Source of the DNA: Halobacteriovorax sp.
Lineage (GTDB): Bacteria; Bdellovibrionota; Bacteriovoracia; Bacteriovoracales; Bacteriovoracaceae
Assembly: GCA_002716825.1 (NCBI GenBank)
Contig: PBCC01000007.1
Coordinates: 1-64,000, forward strand
Direction: 5' to 3'
Length of the DNA: 64,000 bases
Shown here: one piece after another, positions 5,646 through 12,308 of the stretch
How positions within the stretch are numbered: the stretch's first letter is position 1
Layout of the letters: each line of letters starts with the position of its first letter
Notes under the pieces: model-generated
What the model saw: only the letters and a program-made list of their open reading frames with translations
Told to the model about the DNA's origin: nothing
Database searches by the model: none
Program-made: the position numbers and the translations under genes

Positions 5646-5740
5646 GTATTTAAGTCCCTGAGTTCACACTATATTAACGCGAAGGCCCTGTGGTCTAAGG
5701 CCAAAATACCGTAGAATGCTAGAGCTTGGAGGATATATAT

Positions 5741-7144
5741 ATGAGCTCTACAATTCAATTATTAGACAAGAATATCGCAAAATCCGTCATTGATCACGGC
5801 CTGTCATTAGGGGCAGATTTTGTCGAACTTTTTATCGAAAAAACACAAAACCAAACAATTAAAATACTAAATTCTGCAGTGGATGATATTGGCGGCGGCG
5901 TAGACTTTGGGATTGGTCTGAGACTTGTCTACGGCACCAAAGTTCTTTACGGCTATACCAATAATCCTAGTGCAGATGAATTGAAAAAAATTGCCACCAC
6001 TTTGGCCGTTAACGATCAGCAAGCTGCTAAGAACGGTCCGGTCAATTTTATAAATAAGCCACTAAGTAAAGTTCATAAAGCCAGTCTTAGCTTGCATAGT
6101 GAGCATCCACTCGATGCAAAAATTGCTTGGCTTATGCGCCTTGATCAGGCGACCAGAAAAGTTTCTGAAAAAATTGTCCAAGTCGTCTCGAGCGGTATGC
6201 AAAAATGCCAGCAAGTAGAGATCTTTAACTCAGAGGGATTACATATCGCTGAGGAGCGAAATTATATTAGACTTATGGGCCAAGCGGTAGCTCAGGATGG
6301 CTCGGAACAATCCAGCGGTTATGAAGCGCCAGGTGCACTTCGCGGCTGGGAGTATACAGAAGCATTAAATCCGACTCAACTTGGTGAAGTTATCGGCAGA
6401 CAGGCCATGACTAAGCTTCACGCCGATCCATGTCCTGCTGGAAGAATGCCAGTCATTATCGACAACGCCTTTGGTGGCGTTATTTTCCACGAAGCCTGTG
6501 GTCACTTATTAGAGACAACGTCTGTAGCGAAGAAGGCATCTGTTTTCCACGATAAAATGGATCAAATGATTGCAAACCCATGTGTCAGCGCCGTTGATGA
6601 TGGAACCCTAGACAATGAGTGGGGCTCAATCTCTATCGACGACGAAGGAATGGAAACTCAAAAAACTCAATTAATCAAAGACGGTGTACTCACTAGCTTT
6701 ATGGTTGATCGCATTGGCTCAGAAAAAACTGGCTATGCCAGAACTGGATCGGGGCGACGTCAAAGCTACCGTTTTGCGCCGGCTTCAAGAATGAGAAATA
6801 CATTTATCGAGCCAGGTAAAAACTCACTTGAAGAGATGATTGCAAGTGTTTCAAAAGGAATTTATTGCAAAAAAATGGGTGGCGGCTCAGTTCAACCAGG
6901 TACTGGAGAGTTTAACTTCAATGCCCAAGAAAGTTACCTCATCGTTGATGGCAAAATTGAGCGTCCTCTTAAAAGCGCGACTCTCATTAGCACCGGTCCG
7001 GAAGTTTTAAAACAGATTAGCATGGTTGGAAACAACTTTGCCCTTGCCGCTGGAATGTGCGGTTCTGTCTCAGGCGCCGTACCAACCACAGTGGGACAAC
7101 CCGCCATCAAAGTAGACGATATTTTAGTAGAGGGTCGCCAATGA
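5741..7144 (+). CDS. tldD: TldD metalloprotease subunit
   Basis: The start is the ATG at 5741, eight nt after a strong GGAGG (5728-5732); an in-frame TTG at 5726 is inside that region and is rejected. The 467-residue protein shows the TldD zinc motif HExxxH (FHEACGHLLE, around residue 255) and GTGxxG-type glycine-rich segments. TldD pairs with TldE/PmbA to form a cytoplasmic protease known for trimming modified peptides (microcin B17) and degrading CcdA. The stop overlaps the pmbA start as ATGA, so translational coupling is likely. Confidence 0.93.
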   Translation: MSSTIQLLDKNIAKSVIDHGLSLGADFVELFIEKTQNQTIKILNSAVDDIGGGVDFGIGLRLVYGTKVLYGYTNNPSADELKKIATTLAVNDQQAAKNGPVNFINKPLSKVHKASLSLHSEHPLDAKIAWLMRLDQATRKVSEKIVQVVSSGMQKCQQVEIFNSEGLHIAEERNYIRLMGQAVAQDGSEQSSGYEAPGALRGWEYTEALNPTQLGEVIGRQAMTKLHADPCPAGRMPVIIDNAFGGVIFHEACGHLLETTSVAKKASVFHDKMDQMIANPCVSAVDDGTLDNEWGSISIDDEGMETQKTQLIKDGVLTSFMVDRIGSEKTGYARTGSGRRQSYRFAPASRMRNTFIEPGKNSLEEMIASVSKGIYCKKMGGGSVQPGTGEFNFNAQESYLIVDGKIERPLKSATLISTGPEVLKQISMVGNNFALAAGMCGSVSGAVPTTVGQPAIKVDDILVEGRQ

Positions 7145-8478
7145 AATCGACAGTTCAAAAAGTAATCGACATGGCCTTATCAATGGGCGCCAACGAATGT
7201 GAAGTGATCATCAATAAAGGCAGCTCACTCTCACTTAAAGCTAATGAAGGCAAGCTAGAAGAGCATAAAGTCAGCGGATCTCAAGTTGTCGGGGTCAGAC
7301 TAAAAAATGCTGGACGTCTAGGGACTAGCTATAGCGAAAACTTTGAAGACGAATCACTGCGCACGATGGTTAAGACCGTAGTCGAAACCAGTAAGTACTC
7401 AAAGCTTAATGAGTTTGAAAGTATTAGCGCCAAAGATGATGGATCAAAAGCGGATGCAACCAACGAATTCACATGGCAAGAGGATCATACCTCTGCAGCA
7501 GATAAAGTAAGTGCGATCTTGAAATTAGAAGGCGATGTTCTTGCCAAGGGAAGCCCTTTTAAAAGCGCTCCCTATAATTCATTTTCTGAATCTGAAGGTG
7601 AAAAGATTATAGCTAATCACCATGGACTCTATAAGGCCATGAAACGTCGCTACTTCTCTGCCTATACTTCGGCACTTGTCGAACAAGATGGTAAGCAGTC
7701 AATGCATTACTATGGCAGTTCGGCCCTCACGTTCAAGGGCCTTGATCTAGAGAAATGTATTAACGAATCATGTGATCAGGCTCTAGGACTACTTAACGGG
7801 ACTCCAGTAAAAACTGGTCAGTATTCAGTTGTCTTTGACACCGATAACTTGGCTGAACTGTGGGGCTGCTTCCTTAGAGTATTTAGCGCTAAAGCCGCCA
7901 TCGACAAGGTTAATCCTTGGGCCAAGAAGCTTGGTAGTGCTGTCGCTTCTAAGTCGCTTACACTTATTGACGAGCCGAGATTCAAATCAGGTCTATCCTA
8001 TCAAAGCTTTGATGATGAAGGTGTGAAGTCTGAGAGCCTAAAACTTATTGATCAAGGTGTTCTTGCAAACTTCTTACATAACACAGCAACCGCCAATGAA
8101 CTTAAAACTAGCAATAATGGCAGAGCAGGACGAGGGCCAAGGGGTTCTCTAGGTGTTTCATCCACTCACCTTGTCTTTGCTCCGGGAACAGACAGTGACA
8201 GCGATGTTCATCAAGGCAAATACCTTGAGATCGTTTCGCTGCAAGGACTCCATTCTGGAGTTGATGTCATTAGTGGTGACTTTAGTTTTGGTGGCTCTGG
8301 CTACCTAATTGAAAATGGCACAAGATCTCAGGCCGTAAGAAATATTACTATCTCAGGGAATTTCTATGAGCTCATTCAAAACATGGGGCCAATCGGAAAG
8401 ACAATCTACACGAGCTCTGATTGTAACTTCTTCGCTCCTGCCATGAGGTTTGAAAATATTTCTGTTGCAGGTGTTTAG
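7141..8478 (+). CDS. pmbA: TldE/PmbA protease partner subunit
   Basis: The start is the ATG at 7141, overlapping the tldD stop as ATGA. An upstream in-frame extension to 7057 lies inside tldD and has no homologous character. The 445-residue product has the usual PmbA length and features: DMALSMGANECEV near the N-terminus and a C-terminal GDFSFGGSGYLIENG block. It has no HExxxH zinc motif, as expected for the non-metal subunit of the TldD/E heterodimer. The gene is convergent with msrA, 4 nt apart. Confidence 0.93.
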   Translation: MKSTVQKVIDMALSMGANECEVIINKGSSLSLKANEGKLEEHKVSGSQVVGVRLKNAGRLGTSYSENFEDESLRTMVKTVVETSKYSKLNEFESISAKDDGSKADATNEFTWQEDHTSAADKVSAILKLEGDVLAKGSPFKSAPYNSFSESEGEKIIANHHGLYKAMKRRYFSAYTSALVEQDGKQSMHYYGSSALTFKGLDLEKCINESCDQALGLLNGTPVKTGQYSVVFDTDNLAELWGCFLRVFSAKAAIDKVNPWAKKLGSAVASKSLTLIDEPRFKSGLSYQSFDDEGVKSESLKLIDQGVLANFLHNTATANELKTSNNGRAGRGPRGSLGVSSTHLVFAPGTDSDSDVHQGKYLEIVSLQGLHSGVDVISGDFSFGGSGYLIENGTRSQAVRNITISGNFYELIQNMGPIGKTIYTSSDCNFFAPAMRFENISVAGV

Positions 8479-8482
8479 AAAG

Positions 8483-9049
8483 CTACTTTCCCCAAACTTC
8501 TTCTAATCTTTTGTCCCGTCCACAGTTATAACGATAAAACTTATAACGGACGGGATTTTTTTTATAATAGTCTTGATGATAGTCTTCTGCATCGTAAAAA
8601 GTCTTCGCCTCACGGATAAAAGTTGCGACTTTCTTGCCTTTAAACTTTGATTTTATTTTAGCTAGTGAAGCTTTAGCACTCTTTTCTTGCTCTTCACTTT
8701 GATAAAAAATTCCACTCGTATACTGTTCACCTTTGTCACAAAACTGCCCTTTGGTATCGAGTGGATCTATATTCTTCCAAAAGACGTCCAGCAGTTTATC
8801 ATAGGAGATTTTAGTGTTATCGAAAGTTATTTTGATTGCTTCAATATGCCCGCTTGAACCGGAAGATACTTCTTCATAAGTGGGGTTGGCCTTTTCTCCT
8901 CCGATATAGCCAGAGATAGCGGACTCCACTCCAATCAATTTTTCATAGGGAGGCTCCATGCACCAAAAGCATCCACCAGCAAAGATGGCCGTTTGCGTAG
9001 CCCCGTAGGCACTTGAAATAGACAGAAAAAATAGAATGAGAGCTATCAC
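8483..9049 (-). CDS. msrA: Exported peptide methionine sulfoxide reductase A
   Basis: The 188-residue protein has an N-terminal signal peptide (about residues 1-17) followed by the MsrA active-site motif GGCFWCMEPP with catalytic Cys27. The later GHIEAIKITFD, YHQDYYKKNP and GGEKANPTYEEVSSG segments are all MsrA hallmarks. It reduces Met-S-sulfoxide, here probably in the periplasm. It is the last gene of a five-gene minus-strand run of exported proteins, and its ATG overlaps the previous stop as ATGA. No msrB is in the window. Confidence 0.92.
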   Translation of the reverse strand: MIALILFFLSISSAYGATQTAIFAGGCFWCMEPPYEKLIGVESAISGYIGGEKANPTYEEVSSGSSGHIEAIKITFDNTKISYDKLLDVFWKNIDPLDTKGQFCDKGEQYTSGIFYQSEEQEKSAKASLAKIKSKFKGKKVATFIREAKTFYDAEDYHQDYYKKNPVRYKFYRYNCGRDKRLEEVWGK

Positions 9050-9411
9050 GGCTCAGAACTCGGATCATTCCCCAGAATTGCTTCGCCGTTTAAGACATTA
9101 AGACGTTTAAGTATAAAATCACTCTCTTCTTTAGAAAAGTTTTTAAGACTTACGCGCTCAACAGTTTGCGGAAAATATCTAAAAAATTCTGTGACTGATT
9201 CAAGACAAAAGATATTTGGGTCATATTTTCTTGCTTTCATGCATTCTACGAGAATTTCCCCAACTAATTCATCATCAGGGACACTCTTGAGTAGCTTTGC
9301 TTTTTGCGCAATCTCTGCGTAATGAGCTTTGAGGTCTGACTTCGACTCAAGCTCAGACGCATTTAACTGGATCGACAATGTAAGCATCATAAGACTTATA
9401 ATAACCTTCAT
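9046..9411 (-). CDS. Small exported protein of unknown function
   Basis: A 121-residue protein with a clear signal peptide (MKVIISLMMLTLSIQLNAS) and a mostly helical, charged mature part with two cysteines (around residues 57 and 69). No family is recognised. It overlaps its neighbours by ATGA on both sides (9408-9411 and 9046-9049), so it is tightly coupled to the CHAP-like gene upstream and msrA downstream. Confidence 0.75.
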   Translation of the reverse strand: MKVIISLMMLTLSIQLNASELESKSDLKAHYAEIAQKAKLLKSVPDDELVGEILVECMKARKYDPNIFCLESVTEFFRYFPQTVERVSLKNFSKEESDFILKRLNVLNGEAILGNDPSSEP

Positions 9412-10451
9412 GACTCCCCTGCCGGTAACTTAGCATAAATTCCGATAATTTTTCGATTGCTCGAAGTTTCTGATCTGGGCTGATCATCTATATAATCACT
9501 TCCATAGTCGGTATCACTTAACTTGATTTCAATATGACCGGGAGTTTTAGATCCTGGTGTATTCTCGTAAACGATAACCGATCCAATAGGAGCGTCTTTG
9601 GGATCTGTGATTTCATAGCCATTGCCACTCATAAGGTTTACAAAGCCTTGCCTTTCAAGCGCAGGTGAAAAGTTCGAAGCGTACATGCCAGACGGGTATG
9701 AGCTGAAAAAGCCACCATCAAGCATGGCAAACTTAACATACATTAAACAGCGCCCCAATGACTCACTGGCCGGTTTTGATCCTACAATGGCCCGACGTTG
9801 ATTTCGTCTTTTCACGGCACCTGAACGAACAGAAGCAACCATGTCTGTGACTGCTTGAGACTCCTGATAGGCACGGAGAGTCTCGTCTAAAACTGATGAT
9901 GAGACTCGCTCAACGACTTGAGCAACTTCTCTCGTTTGCGTTTCAAGTACCTGTGGGGCACCACTGTTATTTTCAAGGCACTCAACGCATTGATCTTCAC
10001 TTACAGTCGTTGCAGGAGTAGGCGTAGGAGCAGGCGTTGCTCGAACGGTTGTACTCACAACTGTTCTTGATCTCGTGGGTGATGAACTTGTGCTTCTGCT
10101 CGATCTTGGTCGATCAGGGTCGTAGAGAAACTCCCTTCTGGTATCGTAGTTTCTACGTGAAGATCCATAATCCTCACCGTAACTATAGCGGTCACTATCG
10201 CCAGTTAAGTCTTCTTCGAGCATCGAGGCAAAGCTACTAAAAGCCGGCATTAGATTTTGCATTAGCGATGGCTGTTGCTGCCAGTAATTAGGAAGCTGAT
10301 AGGGTTGTTGAATTTGTGGAGGCATCATCGGAGACGCATTGAAATAATATGGCGCTACTGAAATAGGAGTAGGCATAAGACTTTGCGCACTAACGCCACC
10401 TGCAGTCATGCAAGAAAGCGTTAGGATAATAGTGCGAAGTAACTTATACAA
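9408..10451 (-). CDS. Exported protein with low-complexity linker and C-terminal CHAP-like domain
   Basis: The 347-residue protein has a signal peptide (residues 1-22). A Pro/Gln/Met-rich stretch (25-75), an Arg/Ser/Tyr-rich stretch (88-130) and a Thr/Pro hinge (138-150) follow, with a CxxC at 155-158. Residues 230-347 look like a CHAP/cysteine amidase fold: GRCLMYVKFAML with Cys235, then PIGSVIVYE and GHIEIK with His306. This is the usual Cys...His order. Peptidoglycan amidase or endopeptidase activity in the periplasm is inferred, and it sits beside an NlpC/P60 gene in the same operon. Confidence 0.65.
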   Translation of the reverse strand: MYKLLRTIILTLSCMTAGGVSAQSLMPTPISVAPYYFNASPMMPPQIQQPYQLPNYWQQQPSLMQNLMPAFSSFASMLEEDLTGDSDRYSYGEDYGSSRRNYDTRREFLYDPDRPRSSRSTSSSPTRSRTVVSTTVRATPAPTPTPATTVSEDQCVECLENNSGAPQVLETQTREVAQVVERVSSSVLDETLRAYQESQAVTDMVASVRSGAVKRRNQRRAIVGSKPASESLGRCLMYVKFAMLDGGFFSSYPSGMYASNFSPALERQGFVNLMSGNGYEITDPKDAPIGSVIVYENTPGSKTPGHIEIKLSDTDYGSDYIDDQPRSETSSNRKIIGIYAKLPAGES

Positions 10452-10460
10452 TCTTCTTCC

Positions 10461-11681
10461 TTACAAAATACCGCAACCAGATACACAGCCTTCATTTTCA
10501 AACACTTCAGGCTCACCTTTACATCCAGGCTTAGAATCTCCTGCATGCCTAATTACTGATAGGCCTCTAGCGTTTGAAGACTGAGCTAGAGTTGTCGTTG
10601 ATCCATTTCGAATTTGATTACAAGCTTGGCGAACCTTTACTTCCAAAGTGGACATGAAGCCAGACATTTCGGGATGAGTCGCATTGAGTCTTGCTACACC
10701 AAAGTGAGCGGCTGCACCAGAATGAAGAAATTTAAAATCGAAATCACTTTTACTTAGTCTGCCACATGTATTATTTCTCGAGTGGCGTTTGAGACCAAGT
10801 GGATCGTCCCCTACTTCATCAACCATAATGACATGATTGCTGCCGATATTAATAATATCTCCAGGAACAATCGATATATTGCGATCAGCCTCGATAAAAT
10901 CTAAGCATGAATTTGAAGTACTAGCTTCACGGTTAAATGCCGCTGTATTAATCATCCCAGGGTTAAACTCTTCACGTGGATTCATTTTAAGTCCCATACG
11001 TCTCAGAGCTCCGGTAATAAAACCTGAGCAGTCGATAGCACTTACTGGTTGAGAAGAACATGCGACACCACTTTTTCCAGTTCCACCGCATCTTGGTCGG
11101 CGCGCCTGGTTATCATGTAGGCTGATCGTATTGTTTGAAATACTCGGCTTTGCACCATAGCCGTAAATCGGCGGTTGTTCTAAAACATTAAAGCAACCAT
11201 TACGAACGCTACTGCGATTAGCGAGGTATGGATTGTAGGCATTATATCGACTTACTCTACTTCGATCTGAAAGCGTTCTGGGACGTCCGCCAACAGGACT
11301 TGATCTTGAATTCAGGCTGTTTGAAATTGTAATATTAGGTGCCTCACAACTTTGGTACATAGTCGCCATTAAAAGCCTGGCACCCCTAACGGCATCGTTA
11401 CTGCTATTAGCACTTCCAGGAGCAGCAAGACATGCTCCAGTGCCGCGGATACCTCGACTAGAACGCGCAACTGCTTGCATGGCTTCACTTCTCGCAATCT
11501 CTATAATCGAATCATCCACGTAATTGGTATTACCCTCTTCTTCCATTAAACCAATGTCCATGGCATAACCCATCAAGCGGTTAACCATACTCGTTTCTTC
11601 AGTTGGTGACGGCGTAGACTCGGGAGGTTCTATGGCCTGAGCATTAAGAGAAAGAAATAAGATATAGAAAATAGTTTTCAT
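10461..11681 (-). CDS. Exported NlpC/P60-family peptidase
   Basis: The 406-residue protein has a signal peptide (about residues 1-16). Residues 20-200 are Ser/Arg/Asn-rich and show no recognised fold. The NlpC/P60 catalytic core follows: AIDCSGFITGAL (Cys218), then PGDIINIGSNHVIMVDEV (His283). The family cleaves peptide bonds in peptidoglycan stems. The mature protein contains many cysteines (for example around 84, 112, 163, 198, 208 and 259), suggesting disulfides. The gene starts at a TAATG overlap with the preceding gene and is 9 nt from the CHAP-like gene downstream. Confidence 0.75.
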   Translation of the reverse strand: MKTIFYILFLSLNAQAIEPPESTPSPTEETSMVNRLMGYAMDIGLMEEEGNTNYVDDSIIEIARSEAMQAVARSSRGIRGTGACLAAPGSANSSNDAVRGARLLMATMYQSCEAPNITISNSLNSRSSPVGGRPRTLSDRSRVSRYNAYNPYLANRSSVRNGCFNVLEQPPIYGYGAKPSISNNTISLHDNQARRPRCGGTGKSGVACSSQPVSAIDCSGFITGALRRMGLKMNPREEFNPGMINTAAFNREASTSNSCLDFIEADRNISIVPGDIINIGSNHVIMVDEVGDDPLGLKRHSRNNTCGRLSKSDFDFKFLHSGAAAHFGVARLNATHPEMSGFMSTLEVKVRQACNQIRNGSTTTLAQSSNARGLSVIRHAGDSKPGCKGEPEVFENEGCVSGCGIL

Positions 11682-12172
11682 TATTTCTTCTCCTTTTTAG
11701 CTTTATAGCAAATTGAAGCCAGAAAATATTTTTCAGGTGACTGCATCGTGTGTGAGCAACCGTACTGTTTGTGCATAGAATCTGATAACTTCGTCGCAAT
11801 TAAAATAGTGTCTTCGTGTACCTTCTCACCAAAGTCTTTAGTGCTTTTGATTTCGAAACTTACACTATATTGACCAGTAAACTCATCAACTAGCTCTAGT
11901 TTTTTAATTTTAAGTGATCTTAGATCAACTCCAACATCAAAGACACGATCGCCCTCAACGGGAGGGTTCCAAATGGGATTATGGTACTTAAGATTCTTAT
12001 CGCTCAGACATTTAAACTTATAGGATAAACTAGCACCTAGCATCTCGCGCTTGATCGCTTGTTTTGCAATTTCTTCGAGCGACTGCTTTTGACAATAGTT
12101 TGCTGTAAAACTTTTTTGCGCCCAAGCACTGGAGCTAAAGAGTAAGAGCGTGATAACAATTTTAGAAAACAT
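11681..12172 (-). CDS. Exported protein of unknown function, first gene of the hydrolase operon
   Basis: I place the start at 12172, where the protein begins with a signal peptide ending in SSSAWAQ. An in-frame start 45 nt upstream would bury that signal behind 15 polar residues. The 163-residue product has a mixed alpha/beta appearance and four or more cysteines, including a CSHTM segment near the C-terminus. No family is recognised. It is the promoter-proximal member of the five-gene run ending with msrA, and its stop overlaps the NlpC gene start as TAATG. Confidence 0.7.
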   Translation of the reverse strand: MFSKIVITLLLFSSSAWAQKSFTANYCQKQSLEEIAKQAIKREMLGASLSYKFKCLSDKNLKYHNPIWNPPVEGDRVFDVGVDLRSLKIKKLELVDEFTGQYSVSFEIKSTKDFGEKVHEDTILIATKLSDSMHKQYGCSHTMQSPEKYFLASICYKAKKEKK

Positions 12173-12284: not shown

Positions 12285-12308
12285 GCCAGCTAAAGATTTT
12301 TAGCTGGC
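12285..12308 (-). terminator. Hairpin downstream of kamA
   Basis: A perfect 10-bp inverted repeat, GCCAGCTAAA and TTTAGCTGGC, with a 4-nt loop lies 16 nt beyond the kamA stop. On the minus strand it is followed by a T-rich but interrupted tract, so it is a plausible though imperfect intrinsic terminator separating kamA from the exported-protein operon. Confidence 0.6.

Follow-up and report, generated by a model that had tools for sequence, protein, structure and literature searches.

Introduction

The streptopain inhibitor Spi, which is separately encoded, and the pro-domain of subtilisin are pro-domain-like inhibitors that fill the cleft of their enzymes. In the accessible part of PMC4686830, Bd3460 of Bdellovibrio bacteriovorus is described as the first predator self-protection protein, encoded beside the exported endopeptidase Bd3459 and blocking both Bd3459 and Bd0816 in the predator. 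IseA, a secreted inhibitor of D,L-endopeptidases according to the accessible part of PMC7299342, acts in Bacillus subtilis on the NlpC/P60 enzymes LytE and CwlO. Here we describe a row of five minus-strand genes (A to E, in the order A-B-C-D-E) at positions 8483-12172 of a 64,000-nucleotide stretch of Halobacteriovorax sp. DNA (contig PBCC01000007.1, positions 1 to 64,000; hereafter the window), which on sequence grounds appears to consist of two enzyme-partner pairs, B with A and C with D, plus a genus-specific MsrA. We tentatively favor, as somewhat short of probable, the reading that these are two independent exported pairs in which A and D are cognate regulators that hold B and C inactive until they are placed, with MsrA appended.

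The locus resembles Bd3459/Bd3460 in joining an exported enzyme of the peptidoglycan endopeptidase kind to an adjacent small exported partner in the same phylum. It differs in that Bd3459 is a DD-endopeptidase whereas B and C are cysteine hydrolases, in that Bd3460 is an ankyrin-repeat protein whereas the model of A is alpha+beta and no ankyrin Pfam match is listed for A or D, and in that inhibition was shown for Bd3460 and is proposed for A and D. Compared with Spi and the subtilisin pro-domain, the enzyme fold is another one, and D occurs both split and fused within one phylum and carries a conserved GNG tail. A literature search that covered few subscription journals returned no paper that we recognized as describing the A and D partners or the GNG tail, and the portions searched of the partly accessible PMC12546842, PMC11656739 and PMC2797640 do not name these partners.

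Results

Gene D accompanies the CHAP-like enzyme C

Gene D (9046..9411, minus strand) encodes an exported protein of 121 amino acids, apparently mostly helical as judged from its sequence. A search with the single D sequence gave matches in just 3 of the 129 genomes of the family, and inspection of the loci revealed an exported protein of about 120-160 amino acids directly behind nearly every C relative inspected. The profile built from those proteins located D at 56 places in 48 of the 339 Bdellovibrionota genomes that all phylum-wide counts given here cover. At 51 of these places D has a C match next to it on the same strand (50 just after C and one, in G201, just before it); the others are three fusions to C, one D at the start of a contig, the C of that genome being at the end of a different one, and one weak match interrupted by stops. 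D was almost never seen without C. The converse pairing is looser, D having been recognized beside 22 of the 24 C open reading frames (ORFs) of the family and 31 of the 60 from outside it. Among the 53 D-C pairs, 23 are coupled through an ATGA overlap.

Members of the D family are 14-53% identical to the window copy, and their main conserved feature is the C-terminal tail. The motif GN(G/D) falls within the last eight residues of 47 of the 53 adjacent D proteins, and GNG is the exact C-terminal end of 41, an ending found in none of the 469 other mechanically called ORFs of at least 80 amino acids in the same loci. D ends with GNDPSSEP in the window (the G-N-D at 9064..9072, minus strand), with GNDPSVKE in the sister species and with GNDPSVKK in a paralogue from the window's own genome. 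A profile search of PDB sequences with D gave nothing firm, the best matches being mostly designed helical proteins, and a Pfam scan of A and D placed no family above its cut-off.

Three genomes of family f11 carry natural D-C fusions, which are closed exported ORFs of 685, 683 and 668 amino acids with D first, then C, and GNGDDP at the junction. Because the tail of the free D proteins matches a point inside the fused protein, the fusions favor a pro-domain-like arrangement over the simple recognition of a free carboxylate. The same tail could be read in another way, namely that D is a substrate that C cuts or ligates at G-N-G, thereby releasing or attaching D. The internal GNG followed by DDP in the fusions, together with the free D proteins ending there or shortly after, would suit a processed product; but the free D genes stop at GNG to begin with, which makes a cut unnecessary, D persists beside C proteins that lack the histidine, and to our knowledge no CHAP enzyme is known to be a ligase of this kind. 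We regard this substrate role as quite unlikely.

Gene C (9408..10451, minus strand, TTG start) encodes an exported protein of 347 amino acids that we consider a CHAP-like cysteine hydrolase from the weak matches of its relatives and its conserved Cys/His/Asp. A Pfam scan of the window protein gave no CHAP (PF05257) match; 4 of 22 relatives matched CHAP at E≤1 (best 0.0019, below the cut-off), a PHROGs search yielded just weak endolysin matches for a few, and the best hit of a profile search of PDB sequences was an insignificant 119-residue 'putative cytoplasmic protein' (E 0.054). C shares with CHAP the order Cys, GHxE, then Asp, and differs in its sub-cut-off scores, in the Cys-rich N-terminal domain of most of its relatives and in a subclade in which GHxE is changed to GDxQ.

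Conservation was assessed in 84 C ORFs, 24 from the family and 60 from outside it, the latter hand-picked among the matches listed and not a random sample. The weak locus L039 (E 2.4e-4) was dropped before counting, the near-identical copies L036 and L045 from two assemblies were both counted, and L037 is cut by a contig end. The catalytic Cys235 (9747..9749, minus strand) is Cys in 84 of 84, the catalytic His306 (9534..9536, minus strand) is His in 69, Asp in 13, Gln in one and a gap in one, and Asp319 (9495..9497, minus strand), the probable third catalytic residue, is Asp in 81. Twelve of the 13 ORFs with Asp for His306 also carry Gln for Glu308, a coupled change from GHxE to GDxQ (L091, L094, L150, L152-L154, L156-L158, L161, L165 and L175), and the thirteenth, L168, has GDTA. 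The change falls mostly within a Bdellovibrio-like clade, with the Cys and usually the D partner retained.

The N-terminal part of the window C is rich in Met, Gln and Pro where its relatives have the Cys-rich domain. That domain (about positions 13-136 of the C profile) is found as well in many further large proteins of the family (400-1400 amino acids), and it is apparently a shared envelope module that was lost from the window C. A second C-D pair is present in the window's own genome (L040:730-2001, contig C4 of G000); its C has an in-frame TAA within the Cys-rich N-terminal part, with the catalytic part and D intact, and could be a pseudogene, a gene split in two or an error in the assembly.

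Gene A accompanies the NlpC/P60-type enzyme B

Gene B (10461..11681, minus strand) encodes an exported cysteine hydrolase of 406 amino acids with 12 Cys. The window protein scored 12.2 bits against NLPC_P60 (PF00877), under the Pfam cut-off of 23, and those of its relatives that were scanned one by one were likewise under the cut-off. When the family alignment was used, 21 of 22 members matched NLPC_P60 at E≤1 (best 2.1e-4), and 17 of 22 matched an endolysin-like domain at the same threshold. The catalytic Cys218 lies in a DCS motif at an invariant alignment column (11028..11030, minus strand) and is followed by the catalytic His283 (10833..10835, minus strand) and by a third polar residue, His320 (10722..10724, minus strand), which is His or Gln in relatives. 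Across 46 B ORFs, DC(S/T) is kept in 44 and the catalytic His in 45 (L198 has Q), and the third position holds either His or Gln in 44. That third residue is mostly His where the partner A is present and mostly Gln where it is absent.

The structure of B was modeled from the window sequence and 11 named relatives (loci titled Bacteriovoracaceae, Bacteriovorax, Halobacteriovorax or unplaced Deltaproteobacteria, taken from the close-B alignment search); a search of genome contigs with the single B sequence had given no match. The model has a pLDDT of 61 overall and of about 80-90 across most of the catalytic part. In structural alignment its first ten rows were all of NlpC/P60 type (Z 8.4-6.8), the best being 6biq (Z 8.4, 3.1 Å over 119 residues), while Foldseek of the model against the PDB returned E-values without significance and a profile search of PDB sequences nothing firm. 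The modeled catalytic domain has the NlpC/P60 fold and, in spite of the sub-cut-off score, B was assigned to this type because of the matches in 21 of 22 relatives, the conserved triad and the fold. The likeness lies in the Cys-His-His/Gln residues and the fold of the catalytic domain; B differs from canonical NlpC/P60 proteins in scoring below the Pfam cut-off, in the insertion that interrupts its catalytic domain, and in additional conserved Cys and an RH motif. Relatives of B are present in 104 of the 339 genomes, and many look like lipoproteins, which the window B does not. No relationship was detectable between B and C.

An initial annotation of this DNA had predicted two cysteine enzymes of the wall-degrading type in the row, and both predictions held, for B through its relatives, triad and fold and for C through its relatives and its Cys/His/Asp. 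The conservation of the catalytic residues is clear for B and partial for C, in which the Cys is invariant but the His is not. The initial annotation had named a lack of such conservation as grounds for refuting it; this is not seen for B and is seen in part for C.

Gene A (11681..12172, minus strand) encodes an exported protein of 163 amino acids with four Cys that are invariant in its family. It was found at 41 places in 33 genomes, of which 35 adjoin a B match on the same contig, as counted by hand from 43 rows, in which a single broken place in G032 takes up three. If two degenerate B genes that have lost the catalytic Cys are included, A adjoins B at 37 of the 41. The remaining places are A alone in G002 and in G142, where no B match is among those listed for the genome, the broken fragment in G032 and a weak, probably false match in G295. 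In both genomes of the window's genus A precedes B; everywhere else it lies downstream of B. No relationship between A and D could be detected, just signal-peptide residues being aligned.

The A genes at L197, L198, L196 and L054, beside a Cys-less B in family f12 or alone, resemble orphan immunity genes. At L118 (G287, contig C126), a tandem pair of B genes lies beside weakly A-like exported proteins (E 0.0013 and 0.0048).

The model of A (pLDDT 82) has an alpha+beta fold of the NTF2/cystatin-like kind. Of the 1000 chains aligned with it, IseA from the LytE-IseA complex ranked third (Z 5.7, 3.3 Å over 93 residues), and the CwlO-IseA complex and the nuclear magnetic resonance entry of IseA were also matched, the three having Z values of 5.7, 5.0 and 4.7; that ankyrin or other families are missing among these matches is no evidence of their absence. 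Foldseek of the model against the PDB gave no match at E≤0.001. A thus has a predicted fold compatible with that of IseA, through a weak match tied with unrelated NTF2-like proteins, and we treat it as a lead that is strengthened only by the neighboring gene of A coding for an NlpC/P60 enzyme. The likeness of the A model to IseA would lie in the general arrangement of the fold, and A differs in its four invariant Cys and in lying in an operon with the enzyme.

Organization of the locus and gene E

The window sits on contig 7 of a 2.6 Mb assembly that is 74% complete (GCA_002716825.1). Consecutive genes of the row are joined by a 1-nucleotide overlap (A/B, TAATG), a 9-nucleotide gap (B/C), an ATGA overlap (C/D) and a GTGA overlap (D/E), and the products of all five begin with a Sec-like hydrophobic N-terminus that ends near AxA/AxG, as judged by eye without a signal-peptide predictor. 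The coordinates, junctions and N-termini agree with the initial annotation, which had described five coupled genes for exported proteins. G113, the sole other genome of the genus, has the five genes in this order too, again between kamA and tldE and with products about 51-71% identical to those of the window; the preservation of the order there argues against a chance packing of ORFs. A terminator-like stem of 10 pairs, whose tail lacks a clean T run, lies upstream of A, between kamA and A (12285..12308, minus strand); it is weak, since five such sites were found against 3.9 expected in shuffled sequences. No strong internal promoter was found in a search inside the row and, with the stem upstream of A, this makes it plausible that the five genes form one transcription unit. 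A TldD/TldE-type pair (5726-8478) converges on the MsrA end of the row, and the end of tldE has the same place in G113.

Gene E (8483..9049, minus strand, GTG start) encodes an exported MsrA with a GCFWC active site (PF01625, 205 bits against a cut-off of 23.7, 8.6e-61), in accordance with its initial annotation as MsrA. The row had been interpreted as a wall-remodeling unit with an enzyme for the repair of oxidized methionines, supported by a Met/Gln/Pro-rich linker in C. That linker is real in the window, where residues 23-85 include 6 Met, but less marked in the sister species, where a stretch of 70 residues has 3; among the loci read, MsrA adjoins the gene set only in the window's genus (2 of 2 genomes). 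Since MsrA is limited to one genus and the Met-rich linker is not strongly conserved, the methionine-repair account is weak, and the repair enzyme is at most a local addition. A housekeeping operon for wall remodeling, in which MsrA repairs oxidized Met-rich linkers and A and D are incidental, would fit the coupling of five genes for exported proteins, the presence of MsrA among them in both genomes of the genus, and the wide occurrence of B relatives. We nevertheless think it improbable, because, among the loci read, MsrA adjoins the set in this genus alone, the sister species has only a weak Met-rich stretch and the conserved neighbors are A and D, not MsrA. The feature that the remodeling-and-repair interpretation misses is the enzyme-specific exported partners, and the locus reads more as two enzymes kept on a leash than as a simple operon for wall repair.

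Discussion

Each small exported partner probably controls its enzyme. The sequences show that each pairing is conserved, that D-C fusions exist, that the tail and the catalytic residues are kept and that B has the NlpC/P60 fold; partner binding, inhibition, a peptidoglycan substrate and a link to predation are what we infer. B and C would most likely act on peptidoglycan peptides and, once exported, would endanger the periplasm of their own producer. A and D, co-produced with them, may bind B and C in the periplasm and silence them until the enzymes reach their target, which for a predator would be the prey wall. A would then act as an IseA-like inhibitor of B, and D as a pro-domain in trans, small and probably helical, with its GN(G/D) tail lying in or beside the cleft of C in a position equivalent to the junction of the natural D-C fusions.

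Several observations weigh against this proposal. The IseA rows for A are separated by less than 1 Z from rows for unrelated proteins (NTF2-like, VirB8, PBP2a and cystatin-like) and fall under the caution line of the alignment tool (Z 8), and the A profile searched against PDB sequences gave nothing firm, with no IseA listed at E≤10. Beyond a few families, most relatives of B lack A, 29 of the 60 C relatives from outside the family lack a recognizable D, and the window D itself does not end in GNG. In addition, the degenerate B genes of family f12 still have A, and 11 of the 13 C proteins with Asp for His306 retain D; there would be little point in inhibiting a dead enzyme, unless the partner is also a foldase or acts in trans.

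These last two findings favor a different role, in which A and D are folding helpers, activators or structural subunits serving stability, export or targeting, and not inhibitors, whether the enzyme is active or not. The His-less C proteins that keep D belong to a set in which Cys235 and Asp319 are still conserved, A stays beside the two degenerate B genes, and the D-C fusion suits a constitutive complex as well as it suits a pro-domain. However, the modeled fold of A would suit an inhibitor of the very class of enzymes to which B belongs, a tail as the main conserved feature of the D family implies a specific site rather than a general folding aid, and A without a listed B in G002 and G142 suits orphan protection better than a subunit. 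We consider such a supporting role possible, but doubtful. In terms of the cognate-regulator reading, the retention of D with a His-less C would be explained by a pro-domain that also aids folding, and the occurrence of A alone by an orphan protective gene.

A bolder version of that reading may be put forward as speculation that we would not expect to hold in full. D could define a new class of detached pro-domains, Sec-exported and with a sequence that is little constrained apart from a C-terminal GNG filling a CHAP-like cleft, and occur within one phylum as a separate gene or as part of a fused zymogen. Stacked in the window's genus with the unrelated A-B pair, it would form a doubly leashed cassette directed at the prey wall, and the GDxQ subclade would be a non-hydrolytic binder that still needs D.

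If the proposed control of B and C by their partners is true, two unannotated exported partner families would be tied to two classes of wall enzymes across the Bdellovibrionota, and genes left blank by general annotation would gain functions. These families would be new candidates for how predators spare their own wall from their weapons, with the GNG tail as a mechanistic handle.

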